Source: Tateyamaria omphalii
GTDB lineage: Bacteria > Pseudomonadota > Alphaproteobacteria > Rhodobacterales > Rhodobacteraceae
Length of the DNA stretch: 64,000 nt
NCBI RefSeq assembly: GCF_001969365.1
Contig: NZ_CP019312.1
Location: 2,790,001-2,854,000, forward strand
Direction of reading: 5' to 3'
Below are positions 6,213 through 50,527 of the stretch, one piece after another. Below the pieces are notes generated by a model that ran no database searches, was not told where the DNA came from, and worked only from the letters and a program-made list of their open reading frames with translations. Each line of letters begins with the position of its first letter. Position 1 is the stretch's first letter. Made by a program: the position numbers and the translations under genes.

Positions 6213-8507
6213 ATGCGGATTGCGTGCCTTGGCGGGGGACCTGCCGGTCTCTATTTCGCGATCTCGATGAAGTTGCGGGATCCGTCCCACGAAGTGACGG
6301 TGATCGAACGAAACCGCGCGGACGACACCTTTGGCTGGGGTGTGGTGCTGTCGGATGAAACGCTGGCCAATCTGGCCGCAAACGACCCGATCAGCGCCGC
6401 CGTCATCAAGGACAATTTCGCCTATTGGGATGACATCGCCCTGCATGTCCGGGGACAACGTATCCTGTCATCGGGCCACGGTTTTTGCGGCATCGGGCGC
6501 AAGACATTGCTGATCCTCCTTCAGGCCCGCGCCAAAGAACTCGGCGTCGACCTGCGCTTTGAAACAGAGGTCGCGAGCGCCGAAGACTACCGACACGCCT
6601 ATGATGTCGTGGTCGCCGCCGACGGGCTGAATTCAAAGACGCGGATGCTCTATGCGGACGCGTTCCAACCCGATATCGACCAGCGCCTGTGCCAGTTCGT
6701 CTGGCTGGGCACGCACCAGACATTCAACGACGCCTTCACCTTCATTTTCGAAGAAACCGAACACGGCTGGGTCTGGGCGCACGCTTACCAGTTCGACGAC
6801 AACACCGCGACCTTCATCGTGGAATGCGCGCAAGATACGTTCGACAAATGGGGCTTCGGCGACAAGAGCCAGGCCGACACCATCGCAATCTGCCAGGACA
6901 TCTTTCGCGACCACCTCGGCGGCCACGCCCTAATGACAAACGCCAACCACATCCGCGGATCGGCATGGCTGCGGTTCCCGCGCGTCCTGTGTGAACGTTG
7001 GCACCACGAAAACGTGGTTCTGCTGGGCGACGCGGCCGCGACGGCGCATTTCTCCATCGGGTCCGGCACCAAACTGGCGCTCGAAAGCGCCGTGGCGCTT
7101 GCCGACCTTCTGCATCAGGAACCGAAGCGCGAGACCGCGTTCGCACGGTATCAGGAAGAACGGCGGCTCGAGGTCCTGCGCCTGCAATCGGCGGCGCGCA
7201 ACTCACTGGAATGGTTCGAGACTGTCGAGCGGTACTTCGACCTCGACCCTGTGCAGCTGAACTATTCCATGCTCACCCGCAGCCAACGCATCAGCCACGA
7301 AAACCTGCGCGACCGCGACAAGGCATGGCTTGAAGGGGCGGAGCGGTGGTTCATGACACAGGCCGGCGCGACCCGGGATGCGCCCTTGCGCCCGCCGATG
7401 TTTGCACCCTTCCAACTGCGCGGCATGGCGCTGAAAAACCGGATCGTGGTGTCGCCCATGGCTCAATACAAGGCCGTGGATGGCTGCCCGACCGACTGGC
7501 ACCTGATCCATTACGGCGAACGGGCCAAGGGCGGGGCGGGGCTGGTCTATACCGAAATGACCTGCGTCAGCGCCGAGGGGCGGATCACCCCCGGCTGTCC
7601 AGGGCTTTATGCGCCGGAGCATGAAGCCGCCTGGGCGCGGCTGACCGCGTTTGTGCACGGCGAAACCGACGCCCGGATCTGCTGTCAGATCGGCCATTCC
7701 GGGCGCAAGGGCTCCACCCAACTGGGGTGGGAGCGTATGGATGCCCCGCTCGCGTCCGGCAACTGGGACGTGCTCAGCGCCTCTGCAATCCCGTGGAGCC
7801 CGGAAAACCCCACACCCCGCGAAATCACCCGACCCGAGATGGACACCATACGGGACGAATTCGCCGCCTCCGCCGCCATGGCGGCGCGCGCGGGCTTTGA
7901 CATGATCGAACTGCACGCCGCCCACGGCTATCTCGTGTCGTCCTTCCTGTCGCCGGTGTCCAACATCCGCACCGATGACTACGGCGGCAGCCCGGAAAAC
8001 CGGCTGCGCTGGCCGCTCGAGGTGTTTGCCGCGATGCGCAACACATGGCCGGACGACCGGCCCATGTCCGTGCGCATCTCGGCCCATGACTGGGTGGGCG
8101 ACGCCGGGCTGACGCCACAGGACGCGGTGCAGATCGCCCAAGCCTTCAAATCCGCCGGGGCCGACCTGATCGACGTGTCAGCAGGCCAGACAAGCATTGA
8201 CGCCAAACCCGTCTATGGCCGCATGTTCCAGACGCCGTTCAGCGACCGCATCCGGAACGAGGCCGGGATCAGCACCATGGCCGTCGGCAACATCTACGAG
8301 GCGGACCACGCCAATTCGATCCTGATGGCGGGCCGCGCGGATCTGGTGGCCATCGGGCGGCCGCACCTGGCCGATCCCTACTGGACCCTGCGCGAAGCGA
8401 CGCGGATCGGCGACCGGGCCGCGCCCGATTGGCCCCTGCCCTACCTGGCGGGACGCGATCAGGCCTGGCGCCTCGCCGACCGCGATGCAGAGGCGATCAG
8501 GGCATGA
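6213..8507 (+). CDS. 2-aminobenzoyl-CoA monooxygenase/reductase-like fusion (FAD monooxygenase + old yellow enzyme)
   Basis: 764 residues, two enzymes in one chain. Residues 1 to about 375 are a class A flavoprotein monooxygenase: Rossmann motif [10 protein letters not shown], '[10 protein letters not shown]' and '[16 protein letters not shown]'. Residues about 390-750 are an old-yellow-enzyme barrel: '[11 protein letters not shown]', the substrate-binding [17 protein letters not shown] (about 567-583) and '[13 protein letters not shown]'. This architecture and length are those of 2-aminobenzoyl-CoA monooxygenase/reductase of Azoarcus evansii, which hydroxylates and then reduces the ring of 2-aminobenzoyl-CoA. 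It is also annotated as salicylyl-CoA 5-hydroxylase in some genomes. First gene of an eight-gene operon that includes a matching CoA ligase. Substrate (amino- versus hydroxybenzoyl-CoA) is not proven by sequence. Confidence 0.8.
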
Positions 8508-9223
8508 GACAGGTCCTCATCACCGGCGGCGGCACAGGCATCGGGCGGGCGATCGCCCACGCCTTTGCGGATGCGGGCGATGCGGTGACGATCACGGGCC
8601 GCCGCCCAGACGTTCTAAAGGAGGCCGCCAAAAGCCGCGCCATCACCTGCCGCACCGCCGACGTCACGGACGAGGCTGCGGTCGCCGCCCTTTTTGGGAC
8701 ACCCTTTGACGTGGTCATCGCAAATGCGGGCGGCGGCGCATCGGGCAAACTGGTCAAGACCTCGCTCGCGGACTGGAACAGCACCCTCGCTGTCAACCTG
8801 ACGGGCACCTTCCTGACGTTCCGGGCGGCCCTGCCGCACATGACAACCGGCGGGCGGCTGATCGCCATCGCCTCGACCGCCGCGCTGAAGGGCAACGCAT
8901 CCGTCCCGGCCTACACCGCGGCCAAGCATGGCGTGCTGGGCCTCGTGCGTGCGGTCGCGCATGACGTGGCCACATCCGGCATCACCTGCAACGCCATCTG
9001 CCCCGGCTTCACCGACACACCGCTTGCGGATGATGCGATCACCGGACTGATGCGGCGCTTTGACGTGGACCGGGACAAGGCGACGGCCATGGTGACGTCC
9101 GGCAACCCCCAAAACCGGCTGATTGCGCCCGACGAAGTGGCGGCCACGGCGCTGTTTCTGGCCTCACCCGAAGCGGCCGCGATCAACGGCCACGCCCTGT
9201 CCCTGTCCGGAGGCGAGATATGA
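8504..9223 (+). CDS. SDR-family dehydrogenase of the aromatic CoA operon
   Basis: 239 residues, classical short-chain dehydrogenase. Cofactor motif [12 protein letters not shown], 'NAGGG', Ser in '[11 protein letters not shown]', catalytic YTAAK intact, and 'PGFTDTPL'. It probably oxidises or reduces an alicyclic hydroxyl/oxo-acyl-CoA formed after ring reduction, the beta-oxidation-like stage. Its ATG overlaps the stop of the monooxygenase gene (ATGA), and the next gene starts with the same overlap, so expression is translationally coupled. Confidence 0.8.
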
Positions 9224-39264: not shown

Positions 39265-39732
39265 TCAGAGCGTCGCCAACCGCTCCGCCGGGAAATGCAG
39301 CTGCGCCACCGCAGCCTCCAGATCCGCACGCAACAAGGCACCGACATCGGCATGTAAGCGGGCAACAAGCTCTGCGCCCGGCAGCTCCACCCGGTCGGCC
39401 TTGGCAAACCACGCCTCTTCACAGATCAGATCCTCGATCAACGGATCAATGACCGCACCGCCGCCACCGGGATAGCGGTAAAACCCCCAACCGAACCGTT
39501 TGCCCAACCGCCCCTCAGCCACCATACGGGGCAGAACTGGCGTCACATCTGCACCTTCACGCACCGCCAGCACCTTGTCCAATCCAACCAGATCCTGCGC
39601 CTCGCATGGTCCTAGGCCGTATCCCCAGTCCACCAGCGCCTCATCCAGTTCCCACGGAGTCGTGTGACGATAGAGTAAGGTCTCACACGCCCGCCAAAAT
39701 GCGTCCTGTAGCGGCACGATGGTGGCCGTCAC
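39265..39732 (-). CDS. 3-hydroxyacyl-CoA dehydrogenase C-terminal-domain protein
   Basis: 155 residues resembling only the C-terminal helical domain of 3-hydroxyacyl-CoA dehydrogenases ('DWGYGLGPCEAQDLVGLDKV' and 'GRLGKRFGWGFYRYPGGGG'). The NAD-binding Rossmann domain is absent, so it is not a complete dehydrogenase. Coupled to boxR by a 4-base overlap. May assist a separate dehydrogenase or be a stand-alone relic in the benzoyl-CoA pathway. Confidence 0.7.
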   Translation of the reverse strand: MTATIVPLQDAFWRACETLLYRHTTPWELDEALVDWGYGLGPCEAQDLVGLDKVLAVREGADVTPVLPRMVAEGRLGKRFGWGFYRYPGGGGAVIDPLIEDLICEEAWFAKADRVELPGAELVARLHADVGALLRADLEAAVAQLHFPAERLATL

Positions 39733-40619
39733 GGGCCAAGCCCCTCAAGAAACCGATACTTGGCAATGATGGCCAGCAGTTCATTCAACGAGGTCGATAC
39801 CGGCTTGGCCGCCGTATCCACCTGCGCCAACGCGCGCTCATAGGACGGCGTGCGGTTGTGCAACAACGCCTTGAGCTGGTCCATAGCCGCCGGGTTGCCC
39901 TCCATCGGGCGCAAATCCCCCTGCGCCCGCACACGGGCCATATGCTCACCGGGGCTCGTGCGCACCCAGATCGTGTGAAACCGCTCCAGCACCGTGTCAT
40001 AGACGGCGGCGTCGCTCACGATCCCACCCGCGACGGCCAGGATCAGCTTGTCATGGCGACTCACCACCCGCGCAACGGCCTCCGCCTCCAGCGCGCGATA
40101 GCCATCCTGACCATAAAGCGCCATGACCTCCGACAGCGGCATGCCCGCCTCGGCCTCGATCTCCTCGTTCAACTCGACAAAGGGCACCTTCAGCTTGTCC
40201 GCGGCCATACGGCCCAGCGTGGACTTGCCCGCACCCCGAAGACCCACCAGACAGATCCGTTGCGCCCGCAAAGCCAGCGGATTCTGCGGCGCCAAAAGCG
40301 CACGCACACGACCCTGCACCTGCGCGGGTGCCGCCTGATACAGACGCGCGACGCGGGCCACATCCCCGTCCATGGGCGGCGCCTCGGACAGCAGATCCTC
40401 GATCCGCAGGTTCAGGGCCGTCGCGACACGCTCAAGAAGGATGATCGAGATATTGCCCTCCCCCGCCTCAAGTTGGGCAAGGTAACGCGGCGACACGCCA
40501 GAACGTTCCGACAGCGCACGCCGCGGCAGGCCAAGCGCATCGCGGGCCGCGCGGACCCGTGTGGCCAGGCGTGCAATCATAGGGATTGCGCCATCAGGTA
40601 TGGGTTTCGGTGATGTCAT
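39729..40619 (-). CDS. boxR: BoxR/BzdR-type benzoyl-CoA regulator (HTH + shikimate-kinase-like domain)
   Basis: 296 residues. N-terminal Xre-type HTH 'RRALSERSGVSPRYLAQLEA' (about 35-54) and C-terminal shikimate-kinase-like domain with P-loop 'LVGLRGAGKSTLGRMAADKL' (about 123-142). This fusion defines BoxR/BzdR repressors, which bind benzoyl-CoA through the kinase-like domain and release TGCA-type operators. Last-but-one gene of the box cluster. TGCAC-type sites occur upstream of boxC and bclA. Confidence 0.92.
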   Translation of the reverse strand: MTSPKPIPDGAIPMIARLATRVRAARDALGLPRRALSERSGVSPRYLAQLEAGEGNISIILLERVATALNLRIEDLLSEAPPMDGDVARVARLYQAAPAQVQGRVRALLAPQNPLALRAQRICLVGLRGAGKSTLGRMAADKLKVPFVELNEEIEAEAGMPLSEVMALYGQDGYRALEAEAVARVVSRHDKLILAVAGGIVSDAAVYDTVLERFHTIWVRTSPGEHMARVRAQGDLRPMEGNPAAMDQLKALLHNRTPSYERALAQVDTAAKPVSTSLNELLAIIAKYRFLEGLGP

Positions 40620-40678
40620 GCGCACTTAATCTGTTCGTAACAAAAAGTTGTAGGGCGCAACCGCTCCAGTTCAACGGA

Positions 40679-41101
40679 TCACGCGCCGCGAATATGGGGG
40701 ATCAGCACATCCCGCAGCGCGGGCGGGGCAGGTTGGCTTTCAAATCTGTCGGCAATGACAAAGACGCAGGTGAATGTCCCTTCAAAGCGCAAAACCGTGT
40801 CCTGCCGCCCATCCACGCGGAAGGTCACGGACGTTTCGCCCAAGCGACTCGGCCACACGTCGCAGATCAACCGGTGGCGCGGGGTGACAGGGGCCCGAAA
40901 GTCCATGCTCATATGGACAAAGGGCGTTCCGATATTGTGGTCCAGTTCTAGCTGATACCAGCTATCGCCGCCCAGATGCGCCTCCCACCAGGCGTTGATG
41001 GCATCCAGCGCAAACCACGGCAGGCGTGCGGTATAGGCAATCTTCGCCGGGTCGCAATCGCCCCACGTGACGCGAATTTCGTGCGTGAAGGGCGTGCTCA
41101 A
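40679..41101 (-). CDS. Hotdog-fold acyl-CoA thioesterase of box cluster
   Basis: 140 residues, 4-hydroxybenzoyl-CoA thioesterase family: 'VTWGDCDPAKIAYTARLPWF' (about 10-29), Asp in CDPAK as catalytic. Probably rescues CoA from misactivated aryl-CoA esters. ATGA overlap with the flavodoxin gene upstream, so in the same transcript as boxB. Confidence 0.82.
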   Translation of the reverse strand: MSTPFTHEIRVTWGDCDPAKIAYTARLPWFALDAINAWWEAHLGGDSWYQLELDHNIGTPFVHMSMDFRAPVTPRHRLICDVWPSRLGETSVTFRVDGRQDTVLRFEGTFTCVFVIADRFESQPAPPALRDVLIPHIRGA

Positions 41102-41559
41102 GCAGCCTGATCCGCGTCCATCAGTCCCATGATCCCCTGCACCCAGGGCAGGGCGATGTCCTCGGGCATGTCAAAGCCCGACGCGTCGTGAATGCCGCGC
41201 TCGCCCACCTGTGTCGCCCCTTGGGCCTTCATCATGTCGGCCAGCTTCATGGACCCGTGGGCGAACGTCTCGGCAAAGACCATGTCGCCCAGACCGAAAA
41301 TGGCAAAACGAATGCCGTTCAGGTCCGGCTTGCCCTCAACCAAAGCCTCTTCAAACGGCAGCGCGGTCGAGGGCAGATCGCCATTGCCATATGTCGATGT
41401 CACGATGATATAGAACGTGTCCTTCTGCATCGCGGCGGGGTCCACATCGGCCAGGCTCTGGATGTCGCAGTCAAAGCCGTCGCCCAGCTCCGCCTCGATG
41501 TCTTCGCACAGCATTTCGGAATTGCCCGTCTCCGAGCCGTAGTAAATACCCACTTTCAT
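41098..41559 (-). CDS. Flavodoxin-domain protein in box cluster (MioC-like)
   Basis: 153 residues, stand-alone flavodoxin. FMN phosphate loop 'YYGSETGNSEMLCEDIEAEL' (about 5-24), 'VTSTYGNGDLPSTALPF' (about 53-69) and 'FAIFGLGDMVFAETFAHGS'. Short-chain one- or two-electron carrier. It lies between boxB and the thioesterase, where a reductase for BoxB would be expected; boxA is absent from the window. Electron donation to BoxB is an inference. Confidence 0.85.
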   Translation of the reverse strand: MKVGIYYGSETGNSEMLCEDIEAELGDGFDCDIQSLADVDPAAMQKDTFYIIVTSTYGNGDLPSTALPFEEALVEGKPDLNGIRFAIFGLGDMVFAETFAHGSMKLADMMKAQGATQVGERGIHDASGFDMPEDIALPWVQGIMGLMDADQAA

Positions 41560-41587
41560 TGATGTACCTTCCGTCAGTGACCCTGTT

Positions 41588-41773
41588 TCAATGACAGGTC
41601 GCAGCGTTGTCGCCGGAGTTATACAGCGCGCTCATCGCATCCTGCTCTTCGCGGGTGAGCATCATGTACAGCGCAAAGCACATTCCGGTGCATCCCTTGC
41701 ACTCCAGCGCGCAAAAGGCGCGCTGGGGCGGGGGCGTTTCAACAACAGTCCTTTGAACCTGCATCGCGTTCAT
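41588..41773 (-). CDS. 61-residue Cys-rich protein downstream of boxB
   Basis: Cysteines at 21, 25, 28, 32 and 60 form C-x3-C-x2-C-x3-C plus a terminal CH, suggestive of an iron-sulfur or zinc site. The middle 'FALYMMLTREEQDAMSALY' is an amphipathic helix. Starts three bases after the boxB stop; GTG at 41779 or ATG at 41764 (better-spaced GAGG) are alternatives. No family recognised; position implicates it in BoxB function. Confidence 0.65.
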   Translation of the reverse strand: MNAMQVQRTVVETPPPQRAFCALECKGCTGMCFALYMMLTREEQDAMSALYNSGDNAATCH

Positions 41774-41775
41774 CC

Positions 41776-43224
41776 TCACGCCATGTGAAGTTTTACGTAT
41801 TCAAAGTCACCTGGCTTGTTGTCGATCCCGACCTTGGGCGGGGCGATCCAACTGGCGTATTTGCCGGGCTCATAGCACGGCTTCATCAATGACTGAATAA
41901 AAGCACCATCTTCCTTGGTCGGCAACCATTCGTGCTGGCGGGCCTCCCAATCGGCGGAAGTGATGAAATCACCCTCCGGCGTGATCGGCTGGTTGGCAAA
42001 CACGCCGATCTTCCGATGGAACCCTTCATGCGGCAGCTTCAACTCGAACTGAATGCCCGTGCGCGAAATCTGCTTGTTCCAACGGCGCAGGCCACCGCTG
42101 GCGTCGCGCACATAATCATCCCGCAAACGCATGTTGATCGCGGTCAGCGCCGGCACATCCTGCGTCACGATCTTGCCGTCCACGATGCTGGCCACGGCAT
42201 AGGTGTCGCTCGTCAGCTTGTGATCGTCATCAATCCGCTGCTCCATATACCGGCCCTTGATGCCTGCGTTGAACGCATTGGCGGCGTTCGTGCTGACCTC
42301 CTGCCCAAACAGGTCAAGGCTCAGCGTATAGTGCAGGTTCAACTTCTTCTGGATCGTGGGCAGATCAATGGCCCCAAGATCGCGGATCTTCGCAATGTCA
42401 TAGGGATCGTCAATCCCGTTCTCCTGCATCGCGGCCAGCGTCGCCTGGATGGTCCGCGTCACGCCCGTCTCGCCCACAAACATGTGGTGCGCTTCTTCGG
42501 TCAGCATGAAACGACACGTCCGGCTCAGCGGGTCAAAGCCTGACTGGGCCAACGACTCGAGCTGCATCTTCCCGTCACGGTCGGTGAAATAGGTGAACAT
42601 GAAAAACGACAGCCAATCCGGCGTCTCCTCGTTGAACGCCCCCAGCATCCGTGGCGCATCCTCATTGCCCGAGGACCGAACCAGCATGTCATCCGCCTCT
42701 TCCCGCCCGTCCTTGCCGAAATATTTCTGCAGCAGATACACCATCGCCCACAGGTGCCGCCCCTCCTCGACATTCACCTGAAACAGGTTGCGCATGTCAT
42801 AAAGCGACGGCGCCGTCAGACCCAGAAACCGCTGCTGCTCGACCGACCCCGGCTCCGTATCGCCCTGGATCACGATCAACCGCTTCAGCATGTTGCGATA
42901 CTCACCCGGCACCTCCTGCCACGCAGGTTCGCCATAATGCTCGCCCATGGGAATGCGACGGTCTTCAACGGCAGGGGCCAGCAGAACGCCCCACCGATAT
43001 TCCGGCATCTTCACATAGTCGAACTTCGCCCAGCCCTTGGGATCGACGCTCACAGCGGTGCGCAAATACACCATCGATTCCTGAAAATTCTGCGGGATCA
43101 GGTCGTTCCACCAGTTGATGTACCCAGGGTGCCATTTCTCCAGCGCCTTCAGCACCTTGCGGTCCTGGCTAAGCCCCACATTATTGGGGATTTGGGTGTC
43201 ATAGCTGACGTTCATCACAGTCAT
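41776..43224 (-). CDS. boxB: Benzoyl-CoA 2,3-epoxidase subunit BoxB
   Basis: 482 residues. Di-iron oxygenase with carboxylate/His motifs 'QVNVEEGRHLWAMVYLLQKY' (about 142-161) and 'FMLTEEAHHMFVGETG' (about 233-248). Epoxidises benzoyl-CoA with O2 and electrons normally from BoxA (not present here). ATG at MTVMNVSYDTQ chosen for GGAGGAG upstream. boxC lies 51 bases upstream in the same direction. Confidence 0.96.
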   Translation of the reverse strand: MTVMNVSYDTQIPNNVGLSQDRKVLKALEKWHPGYINWWNDLIPQNFQESMVYLRTAVSVDPKGWAKFDYVKMPEYRWGVLLAPAVEDRRIPMGEHYGEPAWQEVPGEYRNMLKRLIVIQGDTEPGSVEQQRFLGLTAPSLYDMRNLFQVNVEEGRHLWAMVYLLQKYFGKDGREEADDMLVRSSGNEDAPRMLGAFNEETPDWLSFFMFTYFTDRDGKMQLESLAQSGFDPLSRTCRFMLTEEAHHMFVGETGVTRTIQATLAAMQENGIDDPYDIAKIRDLGAIDLPTIQKKLNLHYTLSLDLFGQEVSTNAANAFNAGIKGRYMEQRIDDDHKLTSDTYAVASIVDGKIVTQDVPALTAINMRLRDDYVRDASGGLRRWNKQISRTGIQFELKLPHEGFHRKIGVFANQPITPEGDFITSADWEARQHEWLPTKEDGAFIQSLMKPCYEPGKYASWIAPPKVGIDNKPGDFEYVKLHMA

Positions 43225-43275
43225 GTCTTCATCTCCTCCGTTGCCGGTGGGCACATTGCCCACCAAACGCGCGGG

Positions 43276-44934
43276 TCACACCCGCTCCATGTTGAAATCA
43301 CCGCGCACACCGGTCCCATACCGCTGCAACGCACCATCCTCGCCAACCGCATTGGGCCGGTTGAAAATCCAGTTCTGCCAGGCGGTGAGACGGCCAAAAA
43401 TGCGCGTCTCCATCGTCTCCGGCCCGGCAAAGCGCAGGTTCGCCTCCATCCCGGTCATCGCATCGGGGGAGAAGCTGGCACGCTCCTCCAGGAAAATGCG
43501 GATTTCATCCTCCCAGTCGATATCGTCCAAAATCTCGGTGACCAGCCCGGCTTCATCGGCCTCTTCCGCCTCCAACGCCTCACCGATATGCGCGCGCAGC
43601 CCCTCTGCTGCATCGGTCCCATAAAACCGCGTCTGCAACCGTGTCAGATCATTGCCCATCGGATAGGCGCCAAAATTCCCGTCGCTCAGGGTGATGGCGG
43701 CGAGGGGCCGATTGTCGCCCTCGAACGCATCCTCCATCATATACGACCGATCCACAGCCCACAGCAGCTCGGCCAGGACCCCGGCAAAGCAACTCCCATG
43801 CTCCACCAACGCCACCAGCGAGCGTGATGTCACATCGAGCCGCTTCAACACCCGCTTCCAATAGTGCCGGATCTCATTGCACAGCCAGTGCTCCGGATGC
43901 GCCAAAACCAACGCCTCATGCGCCAACACCGCCTGCGGATCACCCTGCGACCGGATCACCCAAACCCCCGCCTCCATCTCATTCAGGCGCAGATGCAAAA
44001 CCGCATCTTCCAACTCGCGCGCCAGCCGCAGGATGTAGGATCGGTCGCCCTCCGCCACCAACGCCTCAACGTCGGCGGGCGCATCCCCCTCCGGCCCTTT
44101 GATCAAAATTTCCGCCCGGCGCGCAGCGCGGTTCACAGTCACCTCCACCAGACCGTAAGACACTGACCCATGTTGCGAAATCGTCCGCTCAATCGGCCCA
44201 AACGCAATGCCCGCCGCCACATCCGCCTTGCCCGAGGCGGCTGCAAACTCCGCCGCCCGCTCTGCAACAACCTCGTCAAAGCGGGCATTCGGCACCGCCT
44301 CATCCACCAGCTTCCACTGCACAGCGCGCTTGCCCTTCACGCCCTCTTCGGTGGAACAGAACACATCCGCCCGATCCCGGCGCACCATCCGCTTGTCGGT
44401 CACGCGGGTCAGGCCCCCTGTGCCCGGCAGCACAGCCAACAAAGGCACCTCCGGCAGCGCGACCGAAGACGTCGAGTCATCCGTCAGCATGATGTGATTG
44501 CACGCCAGCGCCAGCTCATAGCCCCCACCGGCACAGGCACCCTGCACGGCGGCCACATATTTCTGCCCGCTCTCCGCCTCCGCCGCCTCATAGGCATTCC
44601 GCGTCTCATTCGTGAACTTGCAGAAGTTGACCTTGTGCGAATGCGCGGCCCCGCCCAGCATCCGAATATTGGCGCCCGCACAAAACACCCGATCCTTGGC
44701 CGACCGCATGACGACCACCTTCACCTCCGGATGCTCGAACCGCATCCGCTGGACCACATCGTTCAACTCGATATCGACGCCAAGGTCATAGGAATTCAGC
44801 TTCAGCTGATAGCCGTCGAACAGCCCGCCATCCTCGTCCACATCCATCCACAGCGTCGCCACCGGCCCGTCATAGTCCACCCGCCAATGCTTGTAGCGGC
44901 TGGGATCGGTGCGAAAGTCGATGATCTGGGTCAT
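43276..44934 (-). CDS. boxC: Benzoyl-CoA-dihydrodiol lyase BoxC
   Basis: 552 residues, double-crotonase enzyme. First domain 'KDRVFCAGANIRMLGGAAHS' (oxyanion hole, about 82-101) and 'GACAGGGYELALACNHIML'; second domain 'EHGSCFAGVLAELLWAVDRS' (about 379-398). Hydrolytically opens the epoxidised ring, releasing formate and 3,4-dehydroadipyl-CoA semialdehyde. First gene of the box transcript; BoxR-type TGCAC half-sites lie immediately upstream. Confidence 0.96.
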   Translation of the reverse strand: MTQIIDFRTDPSRYKHWRVDYDGPVATLWMDVDEDGGLFDGYQLKLNSYDLGVDIELNDVVQRMRFEHPEVKVVVMRSAKDRVFCAGANIRMLGGAAHSHKVNFCKFTNETRNAYEAAEAESGQKYVAAVQGACAGGGYELALACNHIMLTDDSTSSVALPEVPLLAVLPGTGGLTRVTDKRMVRRDRADVFCSTEEGVKGKRAVQWKLVDEAVPNARFDEVVAERAAEFAAASGKADVAAGIAFGPIERTISQHGSVSYGLVEVTVNRAARRAEILIKGPEGDAPADVEALVAEGDRSYILRLARELEDAVLHLRLNEMEAGVWVIRSQGDPQAVLAHEALVLAHPEHWLCNEIRHYWKRVLKRLDVTSRSLVALVEHGSCFAGVLAELLWAVDRSYMMEDAFEGDNRPLAAITLSDGNFGAYPMGNDLTRLQTRFYGTDAAEGLRAHIGEALEAEEADEAGLVTEILDDIDWEDEIRIFLEERASFSPDAMTGMEANLRFAGPETMETRIFGRLTAWQNWIFNRPNAVGEDGALQRYGTGVRGDFNMERV

Positions 44935-44964
44935 GAATCACATGGGCCTTGCAAGGTCGAAAGT

Positions 44965-45041
44965 GGCACTATGCTACACTGCACACGCTTCAAAATGCAC
45001 AATATGCCACCGCATACCGCGAATTAATGCACTTTACTGCG
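44965..45041. promoter_or_regulatory. BoxR operator array at the boxC promoter
   Basis: GCAC cores at 44966, 44981, 44997 and 45029 (spacings 15, 16 and 32), within GGCACT, TGCAC, TGCAC and TGCACTTTACTGCG. BzdR/BoxR proteins recognise TGCA-containing repeats. The last site overlaps the end of the hydrolase gene. Confidence 0.6.
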
Positions 45042-45843
45042 CTTCCGAGGGGGCATCCTCCAATGCCATCAACGTCCCGCAGAACGCGGCTATCGCTGGC
45101 GTCACCACCTCCGGCGCGTCCTGCTGCGGCGCATGACCGGCCCCATCGACGATCAGCGCCTCGACGGGTGAATAGGCGCGCTCTTCCACCTCACGCACCT
45201 GCGCCAGCGTGCCATAGGCATCCTCGGCCCCCTGCACGACCAGCGCGGGAATGCGCCAGTGATCAATCGCATCGCCCACATTCCAATCGGCAAAGCCCGG
45301 ATCGGTCCACGCATCGTGCCAGCCATAAAACGCCACGTCCGGGTGATCGTGATGGCGCGTGAGCCGCTCTTTCAGATCCCCATCCTCATAGGCCGTCTTC
45401 GCCGCGCGAATGGCCTCCAGCCCCTCAGGCTCGGTAAAGAAATGCGGCGCGATCAGGACCAGTCCGCGCACCCGCATGTCCGACACCGACCCGGCGTAGA
45501 TGGCCGCAATCGTCGCCCCATCCGAATGACCGAGCAGCACGGCAGACTGCACGCTCAACGCATCCAGAAGCGGCCCCAAAACATCCACCGCTTCGCGCGT
45601 CATGTAATCCAGCGGTCGCGGCAGCGGCACCGACGACGACCGCCCATACCCCGCACGCGAATAGGCCAGCACGCCCATCCCCGTCGCCTTCGACAACGCC
45701 TCCGGCCAGTCGCGCCACAGACCAACGGACCCCAGCCCCTCATGCAACATCACCAGCGTTGGCGCCTTGCCCGGTGGCGGCCCCCACCAGTCATATTCAA
45801 GCGTATGGCCCGCCAGTTCGACCTGCATCATCGGTGTCGCCAT
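45034..45843 (-). CDS. Alpha/beta hydrolase of the box cluster
   Basis: 269 residues. Nucleophile elbow 'LLGHSDGATIAAIYAG' (Ser about 102), oxyanion region 'LHEGLGSVGLWRDW' and catalytic His in 'VDGAGHAPQQDAPEVV'. Starts within the bclA stop (TGATG), so coupled to the ligase. Likely hydrolyses a pathway CoA ester, lactone or benzoate ester; the precise reaction is unknown. Confidence 0.83.
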   Translation of the reverse strand: MATPMMQVELAGHTLEYDWWGPPPGKAPTLVMLHEGLGSVGLWRDWPEALSKATGMGVLAYSRAGYGRSSSVPLPRPLDYMTREAVDVLGPLLDALSVQSAVLLGHSDGATIAAIYAGSVSDMRVRGLVLIAPHFFTEPEGLEAIRAAKTAYEDGDLKERLTRHHDHPDVAFYGWHDAWTDPGFADWNVGDAIDHWRIPALVVQGAEDAYGTLAQVREVEERAYSPVEALIVDGAGHAPQQDAPEVVTPAIAAFCGTLMALEDAPSEAQ

Positions 45844-47369
45844 CACACATCCTCCCGCAGCTTGAAGCGTTGGATCTTGCCCGTCGCCGTCTTGGGCAGG
45901 CTGTCGACGCACTCCACCCAGCGCGGATATTTCCACTTGCCCACGCGCTCCTTCACATGATCCTTCAGCATCTCTTCCAACCCCTCGGGTCGCGCGCCAT
46001 GGGGCACGACAAAGGCCTTGGGCTTTTCCAACCCATCCGCATCCCGCGCCGCGACAACGGCACATTCCAGAACGGACGCATGGGACGTGATCGCCTGCTC
46101 TACCTCGAACGGGCTGACCCAGATGCCCGACACCTTGAACATGTCATCGGTCCGCCCGCAGTAGACGAACCGTCCATCCGCGCACCGCTCATACTTGTCG
46201 CCCGTCCGCGTCCATACGCCCTCGAACGTATCGCGCGTCTTGTCCCGCCGGTTCCAATATCCGCCAGCGGCAGAGGCACCGTTGACCAGCAACTCGCCGA
46301 CCTCACCGACACCAACCTCGGCGCCCTGCTCGTCGACCAGCCGCACCTCATATCCCGGCACCGGCACGCCGGACGTGCCGTACACAACGTCCCCCGGCGC
46401 ATTGGACAGAAAGATATGCAGCATCTCGGTCGATCCGACGCCATCCAAGATCGGCACGCCCGTCAGCTTCTCCCAGCGCACACCCACATCCTCGGGCAGC
46501 GCCTCACCCGCAGAAATACACGTGCGCAAGGGCGCATCCGGCACGCCGTGGCTCTCCATATGCGCGACCATTGCGGCATAGAGCGTCGGCACCCCGCAAA
46601 AGACAGTCGGCTTTTCATCCGCAATCACCTGCACCATCGCATCCGGCGTGGGCCGCCCGCCAAAGATCGCCACAGTCGCGCCCACCGACATCGGAAACGT
46701 CATCGCATTGCCCAACCCATAGGCAAAGAAAAACTTCGCCGCCGAAAACACCACATCGTCCTCGCGCACCTGCAACACCTGCGCGCCATAGGTATCCGCC
46801 GTCGCCTTCAGCGCCGAATGCACATGATGCACCCCCTTCGGCTGCCCGGTCGAGCCCGAGGAATAGAGCCAGAACGCCGTCTCATCGTCCTTGGCCCCGA
46901 ACGGCGCAACAGGCGCCTCCGCGCGGGCCATAAACGCGTCATACCCCTCCGCGCCATCCCGCGGCTCACCAATCACAACGACCCGTCGCAAATACGGATT
47001 GCCCGCCAAAACCGGCGCCACAACATCCCACAACGCCTCAGACACAACCAACATCGTCGCCCGGCTGTCCCGCAGGATCGCATCATACACAGGCGTCGCC
47101 AGCAACGTGTTCAGCGGCACGGGGATCACCCCAGCCTTCAGCGCACCCCAAAACAGCACCGGAAACTCGATCTGATCGAGGACCAGCATCGCCACACGCT
47201 CTTCCGCCCGCACATCGGCGGCCAAAAACGCAGCCGCCGCGCGCCCCGATGCCTCGGCCAGCGCGCCATAGGTCAGGCTGCGCCCCGTCCCGACCTCGCG
47301 AAAAGCGACCCGATCGCCCCGCCCCTCGGCCACATGCCGATCCACGAAATAGGATGCCGCGTTTGCCAT
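45843..47369 (-). CDS. bclA: Benzoate-CoA ligase
   Basis: 508 residues, ANL superfamily. P-loop 'LYSSGSTGQPKGVHHVHSAL' (about 168-187), 'DGVGSTEMLHIFLSN', 'WTRTGDKYERCADGRFVYCG' and C-terminal catalytic Lys 'PKTATGKIQRFKLRE'. Activates benzoate to benzoyl-CoA for BoxB. Its upstream gap carries a BoxR-type palindrome. The TRAP transporter genes lie further upstream in the same orientation. Confidence 0.92.
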   Translation of the reverse strand: MANAASYFVDRHVAEGRGDRVAFREVGTGRSLTYGALAEASGRAAAAFLAADVRAEERVAMLVLDQIEFPVLFWGALKAGVIPVPLNTLLATPVYDAILRDSRATMLVVSEALWDVVAPVLAGNPYLRRVVVIGEPRDGAEGYDAFMARAEAPVAPFGAKDDETAFWLYSSGSTGQPKGVHHVHSALKATADTYGAQVLQVREDDVVFSAAKFFFAYGLGNAMTFPMSVGATVAIFGGRPTPDAMVQVIADEKPTVFCGVPTLYAAMVAHMESHGVPDAPLRTCISAGEALPEDVGVRWEKLTGVPILDGVGSTEMLHIFLSNAPGDVVYGTSGVPVPGYEVRLVDEQGAEVGVGEVGELLVNGASAAGGYWNRRDKTRDTFEGVWTRTGDKYERCADGRFVYCGRTDDMFKVSGIWVSPFEVEQAITSHASVLECAVVAARDADGLEKPKAFVVPHGARPEGLEEMLKDHVKERVGKWKYPRWVECVDSLPKTATGKIQRFKLREDV

Positions 47370-47497: not shown

Positions 47498-48850
47498 TCA
47501 GGGGATCAAAAACAGCGTGATCGCCGGAAACGCGACCAGCAGAATCACCCGGACAATGTCCGACCCGACAAAGAACAGCACCGCCTTGTAGGTCTGGGTG
47601 ATCGGCGTCTCCCGGTCCATCGCATTGATAATAAACAAGTTCATGCCCACAGGCGGCGTGATCAGCCCCACCTCAACCACGATCAGCACCAGAATGCCAA
47701 ACCAGATCGCCACATGCTCCGGGCTCATCCCGAAATCGAGGCCCGAAATGACAGGAAAGAAAATCGGCACCGTCAGCAGGATCATCGACAGGCTGTCCAT
47801 CACGCAGCCAAACACAAGATAGAACAGCAGGATCACGCTCAGCACCAGGATGGGGGTAAACCCTTGGGACAGCACGAAATCCGCCAGCCACTGCGGCGCG
47901 CCGGACAGGGCCAGAAATCCGTTATACTGCGCCGCACCGAACACGATGAAAAAGATCATGGCCGTGGTCTTGCCCGTCCCGATCAGCGCCTCACCCAGCA
48001 CGCGCCAGCTCAGATTGCCGCCCAGCCACGCCACAAGCCCCGTGCCCGCCGCACCGATGGCGGCACCCTCGGTCGGGGTAAACCAGCCCGCGTAAATACC
48101 GCCCACCACCAGCGCGAAAATGGCCAGAACCGGCCAGGTCTCGCCCAGCGCCTTCCAGCGGTCGGGCCACGGCACAGCCTCGCGCGTGCCCGCACTGCCG
48201 GGAAACAGGCCCACATAGATCGAGATGGTCAGCACATAGCCCATCGCCGCCAGAATGCCGGGAATGAACGCCGCCAGAAACAGCTTGGCAATGTTCTGTT
48301 CGGTGATGATCGCATAGATCACCAGGATCACAGATGGCGGGATCAGGATGCCCAGCGTGCCCCCCGCGGCCAGGGTCGCGGTCGAAAACCCCCCGGAATA
48401 TCCGTATCGTTTCAGCTCCGGCAGGGCCACGCGGCCCATCGTGGCCGCCGTCGCCAGCGACGATCCACAAATCGCGCCGAACCCCGCGCAGGCGCCCACC
48501 GACGCCATCGCCACGCCGCCCTTGCGGTGGCCCAGAAAGCTCTCTGCCGCCTTGAACAGCGATGTCGACATCCCCGACAGCGTCGCAAACTGCCCCATCA
48601 AAAGGAACATCGGAATGATGGTCAGCGAGTAGTTGGAAAACGTGGTGTATGTCTCGGATTTCAGCTTGGCGAGGATCGGCGTCGCATTGCCGTTCATCGC
48701 GAAAATCCACCCCAAAAGGCCCATGAGGAACATCGCCAGACCAATGGGCGCGCGCAAAAAAATCAGGCCCAGCAGGATCGGGAAGGACCAGAACCCCAGC
48801 TCCAGCCGGGTCAGGCCCAGAAACTGGACAATCTCGCGCACCCAATCCAT
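47498..48850 (-). CDS. TRAP transporter large permease (DctM)
   Basis: 450 residues, twelve or so hydrophobic helices, DctM family: 'LRAPIGLAMFLMGLLGWIFA', 'ASVGACAGFGAICGSSLATA' (about 116-135), 'GTLGILIPPSVILVIYAIIT', 'VEVGLITPPVGMNLFIINAM'. Couples sodium-driven uptake with the DctP binding protein. Six bases separate it from the small permease gene. The adjacency to bclA suggests benzoate or related aromatic acid as substrate (inference). Confidence 0.92.
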   Translation of the reverse strand: MDWVREIVQFLGLTRLELGFWSFPILLGLIFLRAPIGLAMFLMGLLGWIFAMNGNATPILAKLKSETYTTFSNYSLTIIPMFLLMGQFATLSGMSTSLFKAAESFLGHRKGGVAMASVGACAGFGAICGSSLATAATMGRVALPELKRYGYSGGFSTATLAAGGTLGILIPPSVILVIYAIITEQNIAKLFLAAFIPGILAAMGYVLTISIYVGLFPGSAGTREAVPWPDRWKALGETWPVLAIFALVVGGIYAGWFTPTEGAAIGAAGTGLVAWLGGNLSWRVLGEALIGTGKTTAMIFFIVFGAAQYNGFLALSGAPQWLADFVLSQGFTPILVLSVILLFYLVFGCVMDSLSMILLTVPIFFPVISGLDFGMSPEHVAIWFGILVLIVVEVGLITPPVGMNLFIINAMDRETPITQTYKAVLFFVGSDIVRVILLVAFPAITLFLIP

Positions 48851-48856
48851 CTGCCG

Positions 48857-49414
48857 TTACCCTTCCGGTAAAATCTGGCGCCCGGTGGCCGCCTCGACCA
48901 CCCGGACCCAGGCGCAATAGACCGCCGTCAGCCCGGCAATCGCCGCCGCCCCCACGCTCGCGGCATAGGCCCACCAGACCGGGAATTGCAGAAACAGCGT
49001 CGTCTCGCCATTGCCGAGATAGCGCAGCATGCCTTCGTACAGGCGCAGCCCGATGAACACGATGACAGCGGCCAGTACCACCTCCCAAAACGCGCGCAGC
49101 CAGCCTAACGGGCGGCGCGGCAGGGCAGAGGTGAACACATCCACCGTCGCATGCTGGTTGTAGAACTGGCAGACTGGAAAGAACGCAAAAATGGCAAAGG
49201 CGACACCCGCCTCCGTCAACTCATACGTCCCCCGGATCTCGTCCACACCGCTGGCCAGCAGCAGCTGCCCGAACCATCCGTCGCCCAGCGCATGGCCCAG
49301 TTTCGACAGCTCACGCCCGGCAATCGACAGCGTGGTCAACAGGACCAGCCCCACCAGGACAATGCCGCCGATCACCGCCGACATCCGTGACAGCCATTTC
49401 ACCAGCCCGTACAT
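48857..49414 (-). CDS. TRAP transporter small permease (DctQ)
   Basis: 185 residues with four helices, DctQ type: 'MYGLVKWLSRMSAVIGGIVL', 'GVAFAIFAFFPVCQFYNQHA' and 'FLQFPVWWAYAASVGAAAIA'. ATG at MYGLVKW with GAGGCAGG upstream; an in-frame TTG five codons earlier is less likely. Sits between a terminator hairpin and dctM. Confidence 0.88.
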   Translation of the reverse strand: MYGLVKWLSRMSAVIGGIVLVGLVLLTTLSIAGRELSKLGHALGDGWFGQLLLASGVDEIRGTYELTEAGVAFAIFAFFPVCQFYNQHATVDVFTSALPRRPLGWLRAFWEVVLAAVIVFIGLRLYEGMLRYLGNGETTLFLQFPVWWAYAASVGAAAIAGLTAVYCAWVRVVEAATGRQILPEG

Positions 49415-49433
49415 ACCTGCCTCTTTCAATCGG

Positions 49434-49467
49434 AAAAATCGGGCCGCAGCATTCCTGCCACGGCCCG
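49434..49467 (-). terminator. Attenuating terminator between dctP and dctQM
   Basis: On the minus strand CGGGCCG...CGGCCCG (49467-49461 with 49446-49440), inner GCAG/CTGC pairing, then five U after 'GA'. Partial termination would give more binding protein than permease. Confidence 0.75.
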
Positions 49468-49489
49468 CCTTACATTTCGGTTAACCGGC

Positions 49490-50527
49490 TCAGCCTTCGT
49501 AGGCGTCCATCAGCGCGCGCGCCTCGTCGATCAGGGCCTGACCGTCGATGCCCTTGCTCTCCATATCGGCGACCCACTCGTCATAGATGGGCTGCGCGAC
49601 CGCGCGCCAGGCGTCCAGCTCGTCGCCAGACACGGTCACGATCGTGTTGCCGTTGTCCACGGCCAGCGCACGGGCCGGCCCATCGGAATCGGCCTGCGTC
49701 CCACCGGCAAAGATCGAAAACTCCAGCCCCGAATTGTCGTCAATCACCTGCTGCAGATCCGCAGGCAGGCTCTCGTACCGGTCCTTGTTCATGGCCAGCA
49801 CAAAGGTCAGGGTATACAGCGCATTGCCCTCGAACTCGGTGTGATAACCGACGAGTTCGGGGATTTTCAGCGCCGCCGTCACTTCCCACGGGATCGTCGT
49901 GCCGTCGATCACGCCTTTGCTCAGCCCCTCGGGCACCGCAGGCACGGGCATCCCCACAGGGGTCGACCCCATCTTTTCCAGCAGGTTGTTCACGGTGCGC
50001 GACCCGCCCCGGATCTTCAGGCCCGCCATATCGTCGGGCGTGTTCACTTCCTTGTTCACGTGGATCATGCCCGGCCCGTGCACCCAGGTGCCCAGAATGT
50101 GCACATCCTTGAACTCGGTGTCTTTCATATGCGTTTCAAACATCTGCCAGTATGCCGACGACATCGCGCGCGCGTCTGTCATCATAAAGGGCAGCTCGAA
50201 CACTTCGGTGCGCGGGAAGCGGCCCGGCGTATAGCCGACCACGGTCCAGACGACATCGGCGACCCCGTCCACGGCCTGGTCGATCAGTTCGGGCGGGCGC
50301 CCCCCCAGCTGCATCGACGGAAAGCGGTCAACCTTGATGCGGCCCTCTGATGCGGCCTCAACATTGTCGGCCCAGACATCCAGGACCAGCTTGGGCACAT
50401 TGGCCTGCGCAGGCAGGAACTGGTGCAGGTTCAGCGTGACCTCCTGGGCAAAAGCGGCCGTGCCGGACCCGATGGCCAGCGCCGCAGCGCCCGCCAGATT
50501 CAGAAACGATTTGCGCGTAAGTGACAT
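49490..50527 (-). CDS. TRAP transporter solute-binding protein (DctP)
   Basis: 345 residues. Signal peptide 'NLAGAAALAIGSGTAAFA' cut before QEVTLN. DctP fold: 'ELPFMMTDARAMSSAYWQMF' (about 113-132), 'HGPGMIHVNKEVNTPDDMAG', conserved Arg in 'LKIRGGSRTVNNLL' that binds carboxylates, 'GVIDGTTIPWEV'. Carboxylate ligand, possibly an aromatic acid given the neighbours. GGGAGGAAA ribosome-binding site. Confidence 0.9.
   Translation of the reverse strand: MSLTRKSFLNLAGAAALAIGSGTAAFAQEVTLNLHQFLPAQANVPKLVLDVWADNVEAASEGRIKVDRFPSMQLGGRPPELIDQAVDGVADVVWTVVGYTPGRFPRTEVFELPFMMTDARAMSSAYWQMFETHMKDTEFKDVHILGTWVHGPGMIHVNKEVNTPDDMAGLKIRGGSRTVNNLLEKMGSTPVGMPVPAVPEGLSKGVIDGTTIPWEVTAALKIPELVGYHTEFEGNALYTLTFVLAMNKDRYESLPADLQQVIDDNSGLEFSIFAGGTQADSDGPARALAVDNGNTIVTVSGDELDAWRAVAQPIYDEWVADMESKGIDGQALIDEARALMDAYEG

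Follow-up and report, generated by a model that had tools for sequence, protein, structure and literature searches.

The closest described counterpart of the system treated here is the BoxAB epoxidase, whose component BoxB has been solved (3per, 3pf7, 3pm5, and 3q1g in the PDB, from Azoarcus evansii). BoxA is described in PMC5489048 as the reductase component of BoxB, using reduced nicotinamide adenine dinucleotide phosphate (NADPH), and the lack of boxA has been interpreted in PMC10803450 as an incomplete cluster and an obstacle to degradation. A second relevant system is cindoxin/cindoxin reductase/P450cin, in which, according to PMC9687028, cindoxin ferries electrons to P450cin after receiving them from a flavin adenine dinucleotide (FAD) reductase, for which E. 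coli flavodoxin reductase can substitute. Here, we describe a benzoyl-CoA (box) cluster of the marine bacterium Tateyamaria omphalii located in a 64,000-nucleotide stretch of contig NZ_CP019312.1 (the window, meaning this whole stretch), which carries equivalents of BoxB, BoxC, the ligase, and BoxR but in which BoxA is absent and a flavodoxin occupies its slot. We consider it likely, with a probability of roughly 0.72, that this flavodoxin has taken over from BoxA the task of handing electrons directly to the diiron epoxidase BoxB. The observations behind this reading are the gene content, the absence of BoxA, a positional swap, the mutual exclusion of BoxA and the flavodoxin near boxB, and covarying BoxB residues.

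A flavodoxin in the boxA slot

The sequence-only reading of the window had reported BoxA and BoxD as missing from it and had suggested that benzoyl-CoA epoxidation draws on a different electron supply. A tblastn search of the window (E value, 1e-3) yielded no match to BoxA, PaaE, an FNR-domain protein, FprA, or two aldehyde dehydrogenases, bearing out both absences, with the BoxD search, made with the two aldehyde dehydrogenase queries, confined to the window. For BoxA the absence extends to the whole 4.3-Mb genome (listed as 100% complete; 8 contigs), where the model gave only two matches of 20 to 22 bits against a cut-off of 459, whereas BoxA-bearing relatives reach 487 to 570 bits with the same model. 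Matches of 68 to 94 bits in several genomes covered the FNR half of the model alone (about 192 to 411) in frames of 521 to 1,086 amino acids (aa); we did not accept them as BoxA.

In relatives, either boxA or the flavodoxin gene fills the space that separates boxB from the thioesterase/boxR genes. The exchange was clearest between the Pacificoceanicola onchidii locus L084 and locus L308 of genome G316, the DNA of which is 79 to 85% alike from bclA through the end of boxB and 74 to 77% identical from the thioesterase gene onward, which forms the downstream edge of the swapped interval. Between these edges lies one large unaligned interval behind boxB (0.9 versus 1.65 kb), containing the flavodoxin gene in one locus and boxA in the other; the remaining unaligned stretches are shorter intergenic gaps, none longer than about 560 bases. 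In three looser genome pairs, the alignment likewise extended through boxB and broke off at its end.

A scan of genome contigs with the flavodoxin alignment retrieved 137 relatives, the best 80 of which were kept as loci. Among these best 80 of 137, boxB lay directly upstream of the flavodoxin gene in 29, and BoxA was recognized in none. Tateyamaria strains were the nearest named relatives (flavodoxin identity of up to 97%), and the 29 loci also included Roseicyclus, Pseudoprimorskyibacter, Pacificoceanicola, and other Rhodobacteraceae, two metagenome-assembled genomes of the Rhizobiaceae group (L086 and L090), SAR116 (L131, L133, and L140), and an unplaced alphaproteobacterium (L126). Genome-wide, BoxA above the cut-off was found in none of 26 further genomes, 25 with a boxB-flavodoxin pair and one with a lone flavodoxin. 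The flavodoxin and BoxA never occurred together near boxB in the genomes examined. The arrangement is thus real, conserved, and recurrent. The proposed different electron supply in place of BoxA is supported by the genome-wide absence of BoxA and by the retention of the flavodoxin at boxB of relatives. The sequence-only reading had also paired the flavodoxin with a small Cys-rich protein; conservation at boxB held for the flavodoxin (29 loci) and failed for the Cys-rich protein, found in 13 of the 29.

Within the Rhodobacteraceae, BoxB exceeded the cut-off in 82 of 394 genomes, 80 of which were searched for BoxA, the flavodoxin, and the Cys-rich protein (G344 and G069, with partial BoxB, were left out). 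BoxA exceeded its cut-off in 71 of the 80, leaving nine BoxA-less genomes (G000, G240, G056, G102, G139, G220, G302, G378, and G390). Six of these nine have the flavodoxin gene at most 20 kb away from boxB, versus none of the 71 BoxA-bearing genomes (Fisher P = 2.8e-7, kinship ignored). As for the other three, the flavodoxin gene of G390 is on another contig, the contig of G102 stops just behind boxB, and G220 is 75% complete. The Cys-rich protein was present in 4 of the 80 genomes, all four BoxA-less and all with its gene adjoining boxB.

The gene order given in the sequence-only reading, bclA to boxR on the minus strand, was recovered in full, with family models matching all members except the Cys-rich protein (window positions):

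45843..47369, minus strand: bclA, benzoate-CoA ligase, 508 aa (TIGR02262, 716 bits; cut-off, 375)
45034..45846, minus strand: alpha/beta hydrolase, 270 aa (PF00561/PF12697), in the box cluster of many relatives
43276..44934, minus strand: boxC, 2,3-epoxybenzoyl-CoA dihydrolase, 552 aa (TIGR03222, 960 bits; cut-off, 712)
41776..43266, minus strand: boxB, diiron benzoyl-CoA 2,3-epoxidase, open reading frame (ORF) of 496 aa (TIGR03225, 895 bits; cut-off, 499)
42061..42090, minus strand: boxB codons 393 to 402 of the 496-aa ORF, with L393, R394, and R402 common to the seven family genomes with the flavodoxin
41588..41764, minus strand: Cys-rich protein, 58 aa, C-x3-C-x2-C-x3-C, no family match, accessory
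41098..41559, minus strand: flavodoxin, 153 aa, cindoxin/MioC-like (PF00258, 81 bits), proposed electron donor of BoxB
40679..41101, minus strand: 4HBT thioesterase, 140 aa (PF13279/PF03061), overlapping the flavodoxin gene by 4 bases
39729..40625, minus strand: boxR-type regulator with helix-turn-helix and shikimate-kinase-like domains, 298 aa (NF006015, 357 bits; cut-off, 204)
39265..39732, minus strand: stand-alone match to the C-terminal domain of 3-hydroxyacyl-CoA dehydrogenase, 155 aa (PF00725)

BclA, BoxC, BoxB, and BoxR all exceeded the curated cut-offs of their models. The alignment of BoxB with its solved counterpart 3per spans residues 20 to 494 and shows intact EEGRH and TEEAHH stretches, which we take to carry the diiron ligands; the start site of the 496-aa ORF probably lies further in, because the solved protein aligns from residue 20 only. 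At the boxR end, the dehydrogenase homologues of some relatives measure about 686 aa (e.g., L042 and L047), and most Tateyamaria loci have a stand-alone domain close in length to the 155 aa seen here. A tripartite ATP-independent periplasmic (TRAP) transporter set, DctM-DctQ-DctP (47498 to 50527), is encoded immediately upstream of bclA in the same orientation, with homologues at the box clusters of several relatives (L045, L046, L057, and L061), a proximity that suggests a role in benzoate uptake.

The flavodoxin and its covariation with BoxB

The best solved relative of the flavodoxin was cindoxin (4oxx; 95.5 bits; E value, 3e-26), followed by MioC (62.5 bits; E value, 4e-16). NCBIfam and PDB matches place it among the relatives of MioC and the flavin mononucleotide (FMN) domains of CysJ and cytochrome P450 reductase, although it scores far under the equivalog cut-offs of these proteins. 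Purifying selection on its gene was evident from the ratio of nonsynonymous to synonymous changes (pN/pS, 0.10 to 0.29; four comparisons). The cindoxin system offers a parallel, an FMN carrier between a separate FAD reductase and a monooxygenase, and by this analogy the flavodoxin would bind FMN and pass electrons to a monooxygenase. The two systems differ in that the proposed terminal enzyme here is a diiron epoxidase rather than a P450, and in that the cindoxin-like gene has no reductase gene alongside it in this genome. The phenylacetyl-CoA epoxidase PaaABCDE is a further comparison; BoxB matches its PaaA weakly, and the reductase of that enzyme, PaaE, is a 2Fe-2S/FNR protein.

BoxB itself appears to vary with its partner. 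All seven family genomes with the flavodoxin (its gene near boxB in six, elsewhere in G390) encode a BoxB with L at residue 393 and R at residues 394 and 402, and Arg at position 402 was found in no BoxA-type sequence. Random sets of seven BoxA-type sequences contained a mean of 0.013 such columns and a maximum of 2 (300 sets), and in a clade-matched control three such columns were reached in 7 of 968 draws. Lys402 was present in 84 of 84 BoxA-type versus 23 of 75 BoxA-less sequences, and R402 in 26 of 31 flavodoxin-adjacent BoxB proteins. In a phylum sample of 22 loci (adjacency, within 1.5 kb; two loci from genomes already in the family sample), K402 was found in all 12 BoxA-adjacent loci, including genomes outside the class, and R in both flavodoxin loci, while all eight loci with neither partner adjacent carried T or L, and none K. 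On these sequences, Lys402 marks BoxA dependence better than it marks flavodoxin use.

In a rapidly built tree of 159 BoxB sequences, in which several branches are weak (support of only 13 for the trio G056/G378/G390), BoxA status changed 8 times, and the flavodoxin-type BoxB proteins of the family fell at three places inside the BoxA-type clade. L084 stood beside G316 in the trees of both the N-terminal and the C-terminal part. Collectively, these exchanges suggest that the reductase of BoxB has been replaced more than once in bacteria.

BoxA-less BoxB across the class and candidate reductases

In the Alphaproteobacteria, BoxB was found in 81 of 385 genomes, 79 of them new. Among these 79, BoxA exceeded the cut-off in 12 and 66 were BoxA-less; G622, the BoxA match of which ends at a contig end, was counted as BoxA-bearing, giving 13 such genomes. 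With 66 of 79 genomes lacking BoxA, BoxA-less BoxB is therefore common in this class. The flavodoxin was searched with a profile of 23 flavodoxins (matches weaker than 1e-40 dropped, namely, that of G496 and the second matches of G497, G670, and G747). Of the 66 BoxA-less genomes, 23 encoded it within 20 kb of boxB, versus none of the 13 BoxA-bearing genomes (P = 0.007), and 36 encoded it anywhere in the genome, versus 3 of 13 (P = 0.04). Its gene lay upstream of boxC-boxB on the opposite strand in 10 of 40 class loci read, mostly adjoining boxR.

A gene resembling FprA and adrenodoxin reductase abuts boxB in four BoxA-less genomes (G667, G744, G678, and G755, the match in G755 containing one stop), all with the flavodoxin gene within 20 kb of boxB, and the G667 protein (L198) has PDB matches to adrenodoxin reductase and FprA. 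Among 51 loci without box genes (within L074 to L139; e.g., L088, L095, and L103), 41 have an FprA-like gene immediately ahead of the one for a sister flavodoxin, often preceded in turn by genes for a thiamine pyrophosphate enzyme, a protein resembling aspartate dehydrogenase, and an aldehyde dehydrogenase; judged by gene order, these loci appear to be operons with a flavodoxin chain of their own. FprA was also found in BoxA-bearing genomes (e.g., G433, G559, G655, G588, and G680). As a partner of the flavodoxin in T. omphalii, an FprA-type reductase was ruled out, the type being absent from the genome. The FNR-type proteins found in this genome were PaaE, encoded outside the cluster beside a paaZ-like gene, and an FNR-domain protein of 236 aa (at G000:C1:3047594).

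Several loci have other candidate proteins behind boxB. A 321-aa 2Fe-2S/FNR reductase is encoded directly behind boxB in L193 (6615 to 7580), the genome of which lacks both BoxA and the flavodoxin, and it could be a third electron supply. In a motif check for Fe-S proteins across 26 flavodoxin-less loci, L193 had a clear reductase, and motif matches were obtained in L183, L187, L190, L045, and L048. L194 encodes a 680-aa protein of the NADH:flavin oxidoreductase family behind boxB (6525 to 8567). Members of family f171 (genomes of about 6 to 9 Mb; L227 to L233 and L236) had the highest BoxB model scores of the search in which they were found, with no BoxA within 1.5 kb of boxB in 8 of 9 loci read and, in G750, no BoxA genome-wide. 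Plasmid records contained BoxB below 60% identity only, mostly from Mycetohabitans.

Proposed electron path to BoxB

We infer the electron transfer itself, the docking role of the 393 to 402 stretch, and the reductase, for which the following scheme is proposed. The FMN of the flavodoxin would be reduced by an NAD(P)H reductase that contains FAD and has its gene at another site in the genome. The flavodoxin would then dock on BoxB, perhaps through a surface including residues 393 to 402, and pass electrons to the diiron site; O2 would then be activated and benzoyl-CoA epoxidized, and BoxC would open the epoxide product. The most likely chain runs from NADPH through the FAD reductase and the flavodoxin to BoxB, a natural reading because FprA-like genes accompany this flavodoxin group in both box and non-box loci. 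Our guess for the reductase in T. omphalii is a housekeeping Fpr, neither found nor excluded in this genome.

Several observations weigh against a replacement of BoxA by the flavodoxin, or limit its reach. A homologue of about 49 to 55% identity is encoded away from boxB in 9 of the 71 BoxA-bearing family genomes. A flavodoxin of this type was absent, by the 23-sequence profile, from 30 of the 66 BoxA-less class genomes, which is why it is one solution among BoxA-less bacteria and not the sole one. The FprA type was not found in the T. omphalii genome or in any of 27 additional genomes identified by way of flavodoxin loci, and among the seven family genomes with the flavodoxin it occurred in G302 only, beside a second flavodoxin. 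K402 is kept in five flavodoxin-adjacent BoxB proteins (L079, L081, L084, L086, and L090) and is the commonest residue where class genomes encode the flavodoxin near boxB (K, 13; R, 9; N, 1; n = 23), so Lys versus Arg at this position is not simply a mark of the flavodoxin. Over five independent pairs on the tree, presence of the flavodoxin near boxB varied as expected in 1.8 pairs, against expectation in 0, and without difference in 3.2 (averages); for the flavodoxin anywhere in the genome, these values were 2.0, 0.2, and 2.8. Both results are consistent with a replacement and fall short of significance because independent evolutionary events are too few. A tree of the C-terminal part of BoxB groups G000, G240, G302, and G139, whereas that of the N-terminal part does not; because the two disagree, recombination may lie behind part of the shared BoxB change, the 3' end of boxB having possibly traveled with the flavodoxin gene, and the lineages are not fully independent of one another.

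The Cys-rich protein could be a partner in this chain. Its length, first given as 61 aa, is corrected to 58 aa, because the ATG at 41764 is the start common to relatives, while the described C-x3-C-x2-C-x3-C motif was confirmed, its four Cys being invariant in all 39 aligned sequences. We found 35 homologues in the protein database, and the gene had a pN/pS of 0.39 to 0.44 (two comparisons). In one scenario, the flavodoxin and the 58-aa protein act jointly, with the Cys protein holding an Fe-S cluster or zinc and relaying electrons or docking between flavodoxin and BoxB. The invariant cysteines fit such a role, as does the position of the gene, always between boxB and the flavodoxin gene in the 13 loci and four family genomes that have it. 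We nevertheless find this scenario doubtful, given that the gene was not found in 16 of the 29 boxB-flavodoxin loci, including two from Tateyamaria (L069 and L089), that the AlphaFold model (a Cys-bearing loop followed by two helices) has low confidence (mean predicted local distance difference test score, 67.6), and that no known family was matched in Pfam or NCBIfam (63-aa ORF) or in PADLOC (58-aa form). We read it as an optional accessory that perhaps binds metal.

Somewhat less probable is that BoxB of BoxA-less bacteria is fed by a general donor, such as a housekeeping ferredoxin or a PaaE-type protein, with the flavodoxin serving another step or acting as a supplement. The class genomes lacking both BoxA and this flavodoxin would fit such a donor, as would the PaaE and second FNR-domain protein of T. 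omphalii and the reductase directly behind boxB in L193. On the other side, Pfam and NCBIfam models recognized no redox carrier within the cluster besides the flavodoxin, which occupies the boxA slot and excludes BoxA near boxB in the genomes examined, and no other step of the box pathway is known to require a flavodoxin. It is improbable that a diverged, unrecognized BoxA or an unrelated dedicated reductase elsewhere feeds BoxB and that the flavodoxin is incidental; an unrelated protein would be invisible to a model search, but the gulf between the BoxA scores of relatives and those obtained here, together with the L084/L308 synteny swap, speaks against it. That the cluster is a decaying, nonfunctional remnant after boxA loss is hardly credible, for despite the missing boxA and the dehydrogenase reduced to one domain, the ligase, BoxC, BoxB, and BoxR exceed their cut-offs, the flavodoxin gene is under purifying selection, and the architecture is kept in 29 loci.

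The flavodoxin thus remains our preferred donor of BoxB. In a bolder extension, which we offer tentatively and consider unlikely as a whole, BoxB would be partner-swappable: BoxA would have been exchanged several times at the same operon spot, the ten-residue stretch around 402 would act as a specificity switch, and the 58-aa protein of the Tateyamaria branch would be an added metal-centered bridge between flavodoxin and BoxB. No report tying a flavodoxin to BoxB was found in the literature searched, which leaves out most subscription papers and all preprints, and the arrangement with a flavodoxin in place of BoxA is a new variation on the known box pathway. If the flavodoxin is the donor, boxA-less clusters would be complete, and many alphaproteobacterial genomes would need re-annotation. 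Closely related BoxB proteins that differ in their donor (e.g., L084 and G316) would then also form a natural series for a residue-by-residue study of redox-partner specificity in a diiron oxygenase.

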